From: Desulfurococcales archaeon
GTDB lineage: Archaea > Thermoproteota > Thermoprotei_A > Sulfolobales > Fervidicoccaceae
NCBI GenBank assembly: GCA_027014955.1
Contig: JALWDA010000008.1
Span: forward strand, 1-59,869
DNA: 59,869 nt
Direction of reading: 5' to 3'
Made by a program: the position numbers and the translations under genes. The notes under the pieces are model-generated. The model was given only the letters and a program-made list of their open reading frames with translations, was not told the origin of the DNA and searched no databases. Below are positions 8,695 to 15,337 of the stretch, piece by piece (the first letter of the stretch is position 1; each line of letters begins with the position of its first letter).

Positions 8695-9885
8695 GTGTCC
8701 AAAACAACTGTAATTATAGGCATAGTAGTGCTAGTAGTAGTAATAGCCGCAATCGCCCTACTCATGGGAGGAGGGCAGGAAGATACCACAACCACGCAGC
8801 AAACAACGCAGACTACCCAACAAACAACCCAAGCCGAGGCAAAAGAGTATAAAATGAGCATAGTGGTAGGGCCCCAGTCACCTTGGGGACAAGCGGCAAA
8901 GATGTGGGCTGAAGAAGTAGAGAAAATGACGAACGGAAAAGTCAAGATAAAGATATACTATGCGGGCCAGTTATTCGCAGGTAAACAGACAAATGAGTTC
9001 CAGCTCCTCTCGCAGGGAGTCGCGGATTTCGCCATAGGTTCTACCATCAACTGGTCACCAGTAATCAAAGAGCTCAACCTCTTCACCCTGCCATTCTTCT
9101 TCCCCGAAGGAACCAAGAAGGGAGACATATACAGGGCTGTAGATGCTCTAGAAGAAGGAGAAACTGGTAAAATGATTTTCAAGATACTGGAAGAGAAAGG
9201 CGTTATCGGGCTTGCCTGGGGCGAGAACGGGTTCAGGCAGCTGACAAACTGGAAGCACCCTGTAAAAACACCCGATGACCTCAAAGACCTCAAGATAAGA
9301 GTAGTAGGCTCCCCAATATTCATCGACACGTTCAAAGCCCTCGGCGCCGACCCCACTCAGATGAACTGGGGAGACGCGCTCACCGCTTTCCAGCAAAGGG
9401 CTGTTGACGGGCAGGAGAACCCGATTAACATAGTCATAATACCCTACAAGATATACGAGTTCCACAAGTACATCACAGTGTGGGACTATGCAATCGACCC
9501 ACTTATCTTCGCAGTTAACAAGAAGACATGGGAAAGCTTCGACGAGGAGACTAAGAAGATAATAATGGAGGCAGCCAAAAAGGCCGCCCGATGGGAGAAG
9601 GCCATGGCTAGGGTAGGCCTCGACGATGGTACGGCGCTGAAGATATTACAGGAGGAGTTCAACTACACTCCAAACATAACAGACCCCATAGCGTATCTCC
9701 AGGAAAAAGGTATGGAGTTCACATTCCTAACAGATGCTGACAGGGAGGCTTTCAAAGAACGCGTTGCATCAGTGTACCAGAAGTGGGTCCCCATAATAGG
9801 TGAGGACCTGGTCAAAACAGCCCTCCAGGACATAAGGAATGCTCTTGGCATAGAGGTAAGCATCCCATACGAGTTCCAGAGCTGA
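8695..9885 (+). CDS. dctP: TRAP transporter substrate-binding protein (DctP family)
   Basis: N-terminal TM, T/Q-rich linker, then VVGPQSPWGQAAKMWAEEVEKMTNGKVKIKIYYAGQLF...GLAWGENGFRQLTN. Confidence 0.92.
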   Translation: MSKTTVIIGIVVLVVVIAAIALLMGGGQEDTTTTQQTTQTTQQTTQAEAKEYKMSIVVGPQSPWGQAAKMWAEEVEKMTNGKVKIKIYYAGQLFAGKQTNEFQLLSQGVADFAIGSTINWSPVIKELNLFTLPFFFPEGTKKGDIYRAVDALEEGETGKMIFKILEEKGVIGLAWGENGFRQLTNWKHPVKTPDDLKDLKIRVVGSPIFIDTFKALGADPTQMNWGDALTAFQQRAVDGQENPINIVIIPYKIYEFHKYITVWDYAIDPLIFAVNKKTWESFDEETKKIIMEAAKKAARWEKAMARVGLDDGTALKILQEEFNYTPNITDPIAYLQEKGMEFTFLTDADREAFKERVASVYQKWVPIIGEDLVKTALQDIRNALGIEVSIPYEFQS

Positions 9886-9904
9886 ATCCCCCTACCTAAT
9901 AAAA

Positions 9905-9926
9905 CCCGGGTTTTTTTCACCCCGGG
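9905..9926 (+). terminator. Hairpin CCCGGG-TTTTTTTCAC-CCCGGG between dctP and dctQ
   Basis: Perfect 6-bp GC stem with T7 in the loop; intercistronic. Confidence 0.4.
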
Positions 9927-9948
9927 ATATAGCAATAACACATCTTCT

Positions 9949-10467
9949 TTGAGGGCGGTTGTTTTGGGACGCGGGCAAGAGAGAGGAAAACGGGGAATTC
10001 TAGCAAAAATAGCGTCGAGTTTCGAAGAATATGTTGCAGGTACCTTGCTCCTCATAATGGTTACAATAGCCTTCGTCAACGTTGTAAGTAGGTACTTTCT
10101 GAAATACTCCCTCGCGTTCATAGAGGAAATCGGGGTAAACCTATTTGTTTGGGTCACACTCTTGGGTATAGCAATAGCGTTCAAAAGAGGCTCGCATCTA
10201 AGAGTGGTTGTCATACTGGACAGGTTACCAGTGAAGCTGAGGAAGACACTAATGGTGACCGGGCTTGCCCTAAGCGCCATATTGTTTGGAGTGATAGTCT
10301 ACCTGTCCTTGAAACACACGTACATAGAAATGGCCGTTTTCAAGACGCGCAGCGAGGCCCTAAACATACCAACATGGATATACATTGCAGGCGTCCCACT
10401 GTTCTCGGCCATTGTGATAGTAAGGATAATACAAGCTATCATGAAAGAGGTGAGGAACAATGGCTGA
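9949..10467 (+). CDS. dctQ: TRAP transporter small permease (DctQ)
   Basis: Four TM segments, between DctP and DctM, FVNVVSRYFLKYSLAFIEEIGVNLFVWVTLLGIA. Confidence 0.9.
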   Translation: MRAVVLGRGQERGKRGILAKIASSFEEYVAGTLLLIMVTIAFVNVVSRYFLKYSLAFIEEIGVNLFVWVTLLGIAIAFKRGSHLRVVVILDRLPVKLRKTLMVTGLALSAILFGVIVYLSLKHTYIEMAVFKTRSEALNIPTWIYIAGVPLFSAIVIVRIIQAIMKEVRNNG

Positions 10468-11743
10468 CCCCGCCGCTACCACACTAGTCATGTTCGCGGC
10501 CCTGCTGGTGTTGGGGGTCCCAATAGGGACGGCTCTTGGGATCTCCAGTGTCGCATCTATAAGTATCTATGATTTCGGCATAGATGTGGTGTCACCCAAC
10601 TTCTATGCAAACATAGCAAAGTTCCCCCTGCTGGCAATACCCTTCTTCATAACGGCGGGAGTCGCAATGCAGGAGGCGGGTGTAGCCGAGCGTATAATTA
10701 GGCTTGCAAAGGTCCTAGTAGGTGACCTTACTGGTGGCCTGGCCCTGGTCGCCATATTAACGGCGACTTTCTGGGGGGCAGTATCGGGTTCAGGTCCAGC
10801 TACAACTGCGGCGATAGGGGTTATACTAATCCCAGCGCTTGTCGCCTCCGGCTACAGTAGAGGGTTTGCAGGTGCAGTAATCTCAACCGCGTCGGGCCTT
10901 GCCATTATAATCCCGCCCAGCATAGCGCTCATAATATACGGGGTTATAATGCAGGTATCCATCGGTAAACTCTTCATCGCAGGTATAATACCTGGTCTTG
11001 TCATAAGCGGGTTTCTCCTTCTAACAGCTCTGTTAATAGCAAAGAAACGTGGGTACAGGGGAGAAGTCTCCCGGAGGAGCCTAAGGGATATAGCAATCGC
11101 GTTCAAGGAGGCATTCTGGGGCATACTATCTCCAGTCATAATCCTCGGCGGCATCTACGCAGGCGTGTTCACCCCAACCGAGGCCGCCGTGGTGAGCGTG
11201 GTCTACAGCATGTTCCTCGGCTTCGTAGTATACAGGACACTCACGTTTAAGAAATTCTTCAAAATACTCATAGACTCGGCTGAGCTAACCGCGGTCGTGA
11301 TGTTCGTAGTGGCCTTCGCCGGCATTTTCTCCTGGGTGGAGCAGACGGCGGGACTGATAGACAAGTTCGTCGCTGGCCTGATGGGAGTTTCTAGCAATGA
11401 GACCGTTATAATGTTGCTGATAATGGGCATGCTGCTGATAGCGGGTATGTTCCTTGACGCCATATCTATCTACTACGTGTTCCTACCAATAATAATACCC
11501 ATAATGTACCACTTCGGCTGGGACCCAATATGGTTCGGCATAGTAATGACAGTAAACCTGGCCATAGGCCAGGTGACCCCGCCTGTAGCTGTGAACGCAT
11601 ACGTCGCAGCCAAGATAAGTAGAACAACTCTTGAAGACATAGCAAAGGAGTCGCTACCCTTCATAATAGCATCCATACTAGCCTTGATACTACTTGTGCT
11701 AATACCCGAGCTAGTAACATGGCTCCCCAGCTTCGCTAAATAG
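10460..11743 (+). CDS. dctM: TRAP transporter large permease (DctM)
   Basis: ATFWGAVSGSGPATTAAIG, PSIALIIYGVI, FTPTEAAVVSVVY, TPPVAVNAYVA. Confidence 0.95.
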   Translation: MADPAATTLVMFAALLVLGVPIGTALGISSVASISIYDFGIDVVSPNFYANIAKFPLLAIPFFITAGVAMQEAGVAERIIRLAKVLVGDLTGGLALVAILTATFWGAVSGSGPATTAAIGVILIPALVASGYSRGFAGAVISTASGLAIIIPPSIALIIYGVIMQVSIGKLFIAGIIPGLVISGFLLLTALLIAKKRGYRGEVSRRSLRDIAIAFKEAFWGILSPVIILGGIYAGVFTPTEAAVVSVVYSMFLGFVVYRTLTFKKFFKILIDSAELTAVVMFVVAFAGIFSWVEQTAGLIDKFVAGLMGVSSNETVIMLLIMGMLLIAGMFLDAISIYYVFLPIIIPIMYHFGWDPIWFGIVMTVNLAIGQVTPPVAVNAYVAAKISRTTLEDIAKESLPFIIASILALILLVLIPELVTWLPSFAK

Positions 11744-12732: not shown

Positions 12733-13722
12733 TTGGAGGGGCATTCTCCCAAGGTGCTTGTCTACGGAGACCTTAATATCGACATAATAGCAAGGGTGCC
12801 CGAAATAGAGTTGAAAGACCTCTTCTACCCGGCAAAGGATCTGGTAGTGAAACACGGAGGCGTGGGGGGTAACATAGCGGAAGCTCTGCTAGTACTGGGT
12901 TACCACCCCATAATCGTCGCGAGTGTTGGGGAGGACTGCTTCGGGCAAGACATTATTAGCAGGCTTGAGAGACTGGGTGTTGTAACCGATTGGGTAAGGA
13001 CAGTACAGGGGGAGTCTACTGGTTTAATTATAGCACTAGTAACAATAGGGGGTGGCAGGACACTCACAGGCGGTAGGAACGCCAACTCCTTTAACACTAT
13101 TAATGGACACGAAGCTTCCGATCTGTTGGAAGAAACCCGGCCCGACCATGTCCACGTATCCGGATACACGATATACAACCGTGATAGAGGAAGGTCCATA
13201 ATAAGCTTGCTTACAGAGGCCAAGAGCAGGGATATTACTACAAGCATAGACCTAGAAGGAATAGCAATGAGTGAGCCCCAGTTTATATCAGATCTCGCCG
13301 GATTAGTGGACGTGGTTCTATTAAACAACGAAGAGCTAAACCTGATATACAAAGAGGGTTCAATAGATCATTCACTTAAAAAGCTAGGTAGCGTGACTAA
13401 ATCCAGATGGGTTATTGTGAAACAGGGGGAGAAGGGCTCTTCTGGATGGGATGGAGAAAAAATTGTGCGGTCTCCATCCTTTAGGATAAATCCCATAGAC
13501 ACGACTGGTGCGGGTGACGCTTTCAATGCTGGAGTTATCGCTGGATTCCTAAAAGGACTCAACCTAGAACAGACACTCACGTTAGCAAACCTAATGGGTG
13601 CCTACTCTTGTATGAAAATAGGGGCACGGATAGGCGGGGCGCCCGTTGAAGAGTTGTTGGAAATATACACTAAGACCAGGGGACCACTACCTGTTTGGCT
13701 TAGAGAGTTTTTTCAATCCTGA
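12733..13722 (+). CDS. PfkB family carbohydrate/nucleoside kinase
   Basis: GGVGGNIAEALLVLGYHPIIVASVGEDCFG ... DTTGAGDAFNAGVIAGFL. Confidence 0.92.
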   Translation: MEGHSPKVLVYGDLNIDIIARVPEIELKDLFYPAKDLVVKHGGVGGNIAEALLVLGYHPIIVASVGEDCFGQDIISRLERLGVVTDWVRTVQGESTGLIIALVTIGGGRTLTGGRNANSFNTINGHEASDLLEETRPDHVHVSGYTIYNRDRGRSIISLLTEAKSRDITTSIDLEGIAMSEPQFISDLAGLVDVVLLNNEELNLIYKEGSIDHSLKKLGSVTKSRWVIVKQGEKGSSGWDGEKIVRSPSFRINPIDTTGAGDAFNAGVIAGFLKGLNLEQTLTLANLMGAYSCMKIGARIGGAPVEELLEIYTKTRGPLPVWLREFFQS

Positions 13723-14408
13723 GACCCAGTGGTCACATTTCTTATAATCTCCGCCAGAGCGTTTCCCCATTCGGATAATCTGGGAACGCCTCTACTTCTT
13801 CGCTCTACAAGACCTAGCTTCCTAAGATGTGAGATCTTGTTTCTCACAGTCTTCTCACTAACGCCCAGAATCCGCGCCAGTGTACCGATGTCAGCCCCTG
13901 GATTGGCGGCCATTGCATCAATGAGGCGTGCCTCGCTTTTCCTAGATCCTAGTTCTTTTAGAAAAACTATAACGCCCCATGGGATTGAAACCATGGCTCC
14001 ATCCTCCTGCTTTATGTTGATATATGTTTCGAAGCCCAATAGTATGAGGAGGATCAGCACCTCTATGTCAAGTAGACAAAGACGAGAACCTGCTTCAAAG
14101 TACACAGTCCTCCCTCTACAATCCCTAAGATGCTTAGTCAACTCCTGCATACTCTTCGCAGGGTTGTCAGGCTCTACTATTATATGCCTAATCGGTCCAT
14201 CGTAGCCGTATATAGAAAGCTGCTCCTGGAGGGTCCTACGAATCTTCCTCTGCTTACGGGAGGGGGTGCCCGCGACTATAAGCACGTGGTCTCCGAAAGT
14301 TATGGGTGGCGAAATTGACATGAGTCTCTTGAAAAGGAGGTCCATGTCAAGTCCCATTGATATCACAAAGCACCGGTCCTGGGTCACGCCAAAACCCAGA
14401 TGCAACAC
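13713..14408 (-). CDS. CARF-like domain plus winged-HTH regulator (Csa3-like), no cas genes nearby
   Basis: Rossmann-like N-terminus (CFVISMGLDMDLLF...DHVLIVAGTPSRKQRKIRRTLQEQLS...GRTVYFEAGSRLCLLDIEVLILLILLGFE) followed by C-terminal HTH (IGTLARILGVSEKTVRNKISHLRKLGLVERR). Confidence 0.6.
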   Translation of the reverse strand: MLHLGFGVTQDRCFVISMGLDMDLLFKRLMSISPPITFGDHVLIVAGTPSRKQRKIRRTLQEQLSIYGYDGPIRHIIVEPDNPAKSMQELTKHLRDCRGRTVYFEAGSRLCLLDIEVLILLILLGFETYINIKQEDGAMVSIPWGVIVFLKELGSRKSEARLIDAMAANPGADIGTLARILGVSEKTVRNKISHLRKLGLVERRSRGVPRLSEWGNALAEIIRNVTTGSQD

Positions 14409-14436
14409 CTCTTCAGGGAGCTATATTGATAATTCA

Positions 14437-15294
14437 TTATACTTTGCTATCCTGTTTTCTAAAAATCTTTCCCCACAGAGGATGGTATAATACAAAAGGT
14501 GCAAGCCACAATAGAAGCGCCTCGGGAACGATGTCGGCACATCCAATTATTGCAGATAAATTCCATAGGGTATGTAGTATCACGGCCGTAGCTATCGAGC
14601 CTTCTTTTGCAGAAACGAATCCAAGTGATAGCCCTGCTGCAAGACTGGCAATGAGATATCCAATTGCCCATATGCTGGGAGTCCAAATTATGTGAGGGAT
14701 ATGCCAGAATGAAAACAGGAGTGCTTGTAACACGATCCCCAAGTTAATAGACCCCAATCTATGTGATAGACTCCTTAGCATAAGCCCGCGGAACATGCCT
14801 TCTTCAAAAAGGCTATTAACAACGAGAAAAGGCGTCAGAAATACCACTATAAGCTCAAAGTCAAGAGACTCGCCACACCTGTTTAAAGTGAACACCATAA
14901 CTATGAGAAAGAGAGCAATGAGTAGAATCCTTTCTAAAACGAATAGTCCAGAGCGTAAAAAGAGTGCCAGCCTTCCACCAGTAACAAGCGCAACAAGCCC
15001 CAGGCCCCAAAGCTTCTCAAGCACATAAATAGGCCAGCTCCTCATGAAGTAGGACTCTAGGACCCGTGCCAGCATGAATATGATATACAAGGCAAACACA
15101 GTCTTTACTGCAACTTGGGGTAGAGGCTTGCTCGCATTCCCCGACATCCCCCAAAGAGACAATATTAGTCCAGCCCAGTACACCAGTCCCAGTAAAACCA
15201 CTCCCCCATAAATGTAGGCAAAATATGACGAAACTCCAAGGATCACTACTACTGCATAAACCAGTGTTCCACGATAACTCGTTGGTAATGCCAA
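14437..15294 (-). CDS. CPBP family intramembrane metalloprotease (CAAX protease-like)
   Basis: Multi-TM with all three motifs: EEGMFRG (EExxxR), FSFWH (FxxxH), HTLWN (HxxxN). Confidence 0.88.
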   Translation of the reverse strand: MALPTSYRGTLVYAVVVILGVSSYFAYIYGGVVLLGLVYWAGLILSLWGMSGNASKPLPQVAVKTVFALYIIFMLARVLESYFMRSWPIYVLEKLWGLGLVALVTGGRLALFLRSGLFVLERILLIALFLIVMVFTLNRCGESLDFELIVVFLTPFLVVNSLFEEGMFRGLMLRSLSHRLGSINLGIVLQALLFSFWHIPHIIWTPSIWAIGYLIASLAAGLSLGFVSAKEGSIATAVILHTLWNLSAIIGCADIVPEALLLWLAPFVLYHPLWGKIFRKQDSKV

Positions 15295-15337
15295 TTATCT
15301 CCGCACCCGATGATATTGTAGACGCGGAGAGGTAAAA

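Follow-up and report, generated by a model that had tools for sequence, protein, structure and literature searches.

We propose that the window, the whole 59,869-nucleotide stretch of DNA analysed here, carries an offshoot of the Csa3a regulators that stands outside CRISPR, has probably lost the Csa3-type response to cA4 and probably controls its own small operon, headed by a CPBP protease gene; in this reading our confidence and our doubt are about evenly matched. The window makes up contig C8 in the assembly of a hot-spring archaeon, whose genome is 71% complete and divided into 234 contigs. The features on which the argument turns are the following, with the CPBP gene transcribed first and the regulator gene second:

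14437..15294, minus strand: CPBP family intramembrane glutamic protease, 285 aa, TTG start, about nine hydrophobic segments, assigned by PF02517 (E = 8e-16), motifs and hydropathy
14409..14436, minus strand: intergenic gap between the CPBP and regulator genes, 28 nt
13713..14408, minus strand: stand-alone regulator of the Csa3a type with CARF and wHTH domains, 231 aa, starting at GTG 14408 or perhaps GTG 14387
13980..14375, minus strand: CARF (Csa3_N) domain of the regulator, residues 12-143
13716..13940, minus strand: winged helix-turn-helix domain of the regulator, residues 157-231
15298..15330, no strand assigned: inverted repeat TCTCCGC-19 nt-GCGGAGA in the CPBP/MFS divergent promoter region, a weakly indicated candidate operator

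The two genes are real and maintained. Both proteins are 92% identical to their counterparts in G001, another species of this genus, where the pair has the same arrangement and the same flanks, and the dN/dS values between the two species, 0.087 and 0.20 for the two proteins, indicate purifying selection. A chance pair of open reading frames was rejected on these grounds, and a pseudogene on the dN/dS values. A mobile-element origin was also rejected, since tblastn with the CARF protein matched nothing in plasmid or phage records and the flanks are alike in the sister species; a scan of viral contigs with the CARF and CPBP proteins found no relatives. The 28-nt gap by itself suggests that the genes are co-transcribed. 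The regulator may truly begin at GTG 14387 (residue 8), where its homologs begin. The protease carries all three CPBP motifs, as EEGMFR (E164), FSFWH (F194/H198) and HTLWN (H241/N245); no PDB sequence matched it, and its structure model (mean pLDDT 40) was discarded.

The regulator is a Csa3-type CARF-wHTH protein. It scores 27.0 bits against Csa3_N (PF22662), exactly the cut-off of 27, and 53 bits against TIGR01884, under the cut-off of 60.2, while the PADLOC models CARF3 (E = 1.9e-27) and Csa3 (2e-19) match it well. Among PDB sequences it matches the Csa3 entries 6WXQ, 2WTE and 6W11 best (E about 1e-5). An AlphaFold model built from three sequences reached a moderate mean pLDDT of 71.6, with 88-94 at residues ~160-200 in the wHTH, and the first four Foldseek matches of this model are all Csa3 (E 1e-9 to 6e-7), although the global TM-scores are only ~0.4. 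Because profile, PDB-sequence and fold searches all point to Csa3, the CARF reading is right; the C-terminal domain matches MarR_2 and other HTH models. Thus, the preliminary description holds in its account of the genes themselves: two minus-strand genes 28 nt apart, the EExxxR, FxxxH and HxxxN motifs in the first, and a Csa3-like CARF half, borne out by the structural comparison, followed by a winged HTH in the second.

In a maximum-likelihood tree of 48 proteins, the regulators of the window and of G001 fall inside the adaptation-type Csa3a clade (31 rows, support 96/89); the stem leading to them measures 1.61 changes per column, and their sister group consists of Csa3a proteins of their own family (support 97/92). 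A recent duplication of the type I-A csa3 of the same genome was rejected, considering the BLAST E of 0.035 and its distant place in the tree. Across the class, 95 of 229 genomes encode a Csa3-like protein (E <= 1e-7). Where neighbourhoods were annotated, the majority of close relatives adjoin csa1-cas1-cas2-cas4 or I-A genes. Among those that do not are the regulators of the window and of G001, and also stand-alone copies in G002 and G004, whose neighbours differ from those in the window. Linkage to cas genes is usual for Csa3 and not strictly defining (PMC4012209).

Two of these other genomes are worth describing in their own right. The stand-alone CARF-wHTH gene of G004 (C1:204565-205242; 8557-9243 of L027) has intact cA4-contact motifs, GFH and GGGMR, and searches of this 99%-complete genome for cas1, Cas7 and Cas10 found none; a CARF regulator has apparently been kept there without CRISPR. 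In G002, a csa3a copy next to cas4-cas1 (C1:59341-60025; L030/L031) is broken over two reading frames, and the stand-alone Csa3-like copy at 1318234-1318899 is intact.

The ligand pocket is where the window regulator departs from its clade. In the Csa3 of Saccharolobus (Csa3Sso), the substitutions F10A, G96A and R98A abolish cA4 binding, and so does alanine at Phe14 (PMC8844856). Across 49 aligned homologs, the residue after Gly9, at the Phe10 position, is Leu20 in the window protein and Ile in G001, and aromatic in all 46 others; the Gly96 and Arg98 positions hold Arg109 and Cys111 in the window protein, likewise Arg and Cys in G001, and Gly/Arg in 47/47 other homologs. MAFFT and hhalign agree on the register of this second motif. 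An alternative register with a two-residue deletion would match the window's G-S-R to G-x-R, leaving the motif 1 change only, and the model is too uncertain around motif 2 (pLDDT about 56-61, low confidence) to decide; the loss of Gly96 and Arg98 is therefore likely, not proven, whereas the replacement of Phe10 by Leu or Ile is independent of the motif 2 register. Glu122 is kept.

The two domains have also diverged to different degrees. Mean identity to the clade is 0.18 for the CARF domain, the lowest of all sampled, and 0.34 for the wHTH, which is average. An alignment of seven CARF proteins contained no segment of sufficient conservation to serve as a scan query. Between the two species, dN/dS is 0.087 in the CARF domain and 0.046 in the wHTH, so the altered CARF domain is being maintained and is not decaying. 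Because the cA4-contact residues are replaced, the regulator has probably lost cA4 binding and, with it, the response to cA4 that is typical of Csa3, and canonical cyclic-oligoadenylate (cOA) sensing, which the preliminary description supposed, is unlikely as judged from these residues.

How, then, may the regulator act? We propose that a Csa3a-family CARF-wHTH protein, presumably dimeric, left a CRISPR adaptation locus and, in one genus, was retained in a small operon, following the CPBP gene. With its cA4-contact residues replaced, it would most likely lack the Csa3-type response to cA4. Its binding site would probably be the promoter region from which the CPBP operon and the MFS gene diverge, and it would thereby set the expression of the CPBP protease and of itself, constitutively or through another ligand, and perhaps that of the MFS gene too. 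The inverted repeat, with perfect 7-bp arms and a 19-nt spacer, lies inside this 43-bp divergent promoter region. Its arms are kept over six bases in the sister species, and it was absent from the other loci compared; the promoter region as a whole is conserved between these two, the only genomes with the pair. Considering that such a repeat is near chance level for 101 bp, and only mildly unusual, we take it as no more than a lead. Csa3a binds imperfect palindromes at the csa1 and cas1 promoters (PMC4333418), which fits the conserved wHTH of the window regulator, and the repeat may be an operator for autoregulation.

The most serious competitor to operon control, although rather unlikely in our judgement, is that the two genes are functionally unconnected, having met once by chance in an ancestor of this genus, and that the regulator acts elsewhere or is a relic. 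Of the 229 genomes of the class, 111 encode PF02517 proteins and 48 contain both families. Neighbourhoods of the two were found by eye, matching two position lists per contig, and only 2/229 genomes, this one and its congener, have such a neighbourhood. The preliminary description had made conservation beyond this genome its test, and the pair extends to one congener but not outside the genus. Chance would give about 0.09 adjacent pairs in the survey, or 0.04 on the same strand. One event, confined to one genus, gives weak evidence for a functional link; moreover, the nearest CPBP protein from beyond the genus (G513) lacks a CARF neighbour, and in G002 and G004 the stand-alone Csa3-like copies adjoin other genes. 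Against mere coincidence, the genes lie on the same strand 28 nt apart, and across the two species 26/28 bases of the gap are conserved along with the genes at 92%. A search of the literature on CARF together with CPBP found no relevant paper in the library covered.

A bolder extension of operon control is that the CARF pocket has been rebuilt for a new ligand, or for none, and that the regulator governs the protease operon as a CARF-controlled stress response independent of cOA. We consider this improbable as a whole, although if it were true, a receptor of a CRISPR second messenger would have been recruited out of CRISPR to govern an intramembrane protease operon, independently of cyclic oligoadenylate.

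The wider genome has to be considered as well. No CRISPR array was found in the window, and cas1, cas7 and cas10 models matched nothing on its contig; a location outside a CRISPR locus is thus upheld. The accompanying statement that no cas genes are in view is correct for the window and fails for the genome, in which contig C87 carries a second CARF-wHTH gene (csa3), on a different branch of the tree, within a type I-A operon with csa5, cas7, cas3 and an HD nuclease, and contig C92 encodes a partial Cas10-like protein with GGDD. A Cas10 protein is present in G001 also. With such a Cas10 in the genome, cOA could be present, so it is the replaced pocket and not an absence of the messenger that argues here. 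Next to the Cas10 fragment (L121) are genes for chorismate synthase and arginyl-tRNA synthetase that, judged by eye, look bacterial, and contig C92 may therefore be chimeric or a contaminant. In G001, a gene that is CARF-HTH-like by eye (L119:142-795; contig C141) adjoins a Cas10d/type I-D locus with cas1 and matched no PADLOC model at E 1e-4. The window itself also holds, at 8695-11743, the full set of genes for a DctP-DctQ-DctM TRAP transporter, with BtpA-family and PfkB genes after it; transporters of this type are uncommon in Thermoproteota.

This setting allows another role, in which a ligand-insensitive Csa3a works in trans within its own genome, as a constitutive activator or repressor of the adaptation or I-A genes. 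The wHTH is conserved as much as in cas-linked Csa3a, the recognition segment EKTVxNxIxxLxKLGLVE is common to both, and the genome retains the I-A operon that such a regulator would serve. This operon has its own csa3, however, cas1 was not found in the genome (71% complete), and the promoter inverted repeat has no copy at the other loci compared; we thus rate action in trans as distinctly improbable, slightly below the rebuilt pocket. Finally, a defence module outside a CRISPR locus, made of a cOA-sensing regulator and a membrane protease, is very improbable: the CARF domain is present and the Cas10-like fragment means that cOA could be too, but the cA4-contact residues are replaced (with motif 2 dependent on register), the pair is restricted to one genus, the CPBP gene and the six other window proteins tested matched no PADLOC model, and the CARF protein has no match in phage or plasmid records.

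The value of the case is that it offers a natural test of how a CARF regulator changes after leaving CRISPR control: within one family, the offshoot with its replaced cA4 contacts can be compared with a cas-linked sister (G007) whose pocket is intact. It also cautions against taking each CARF-HTH gene as a cyclic-oligoadenylate sensor, and each pair of a CARF gene and its neighbour as a defence system.

Several known systems place these two proteins. The protease shares with the CPBP/Abi (Rce1-like) proteases of PF02517 the three catalytic motifs and a polytopic membrane protein; unlike that family at large, its close relatives are confined to the genus, with 26% identity to the best match in the order, and the other PF02517 members of the class lack a CARF-wHTH neighbour. 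The dimeric CARF-wHTH regulator MM_0565 of Methanosarcina mazei (PMC7465815), with a reported target away from its own locus, is comparable to the window regulator; it differs in adjoining a type I-B locus and activating cas1-solo, and CPBP is not reported for it. The closest likeness is to Csa3a itself (SSO1445, PDB 2WTE/6W11/6WXQ; SiRe_0764 of S. islandicus), which shares the CARF and wHTH architecture, is the top sequence and fold match, falls in the same clade, and has the recognition helix and Glu122 in common with the window regulator. Unlike Csa3a, the window regulator sits away from csa1-cas1-cas2-cas4 and is paired with CPBP, its equivalents of Phe10, Gly96 and Arg98 are L20, R109 and C111, and its CARF domain is the most divergent of those sampled. 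CARF genes unlinked to CRISPR-Cas have been recorded in every CARF family (PMC4012209), and a CARF-HTH gene away from cas is what the window holds as well. Beyond those genes, the present case documents a change in the ligand contacts together with a close cas-linked sister in the same family, and this is what is new here: an offshoot with replaced cA4 contacts, as compared with a cas-linked sister whose pocket is intact.
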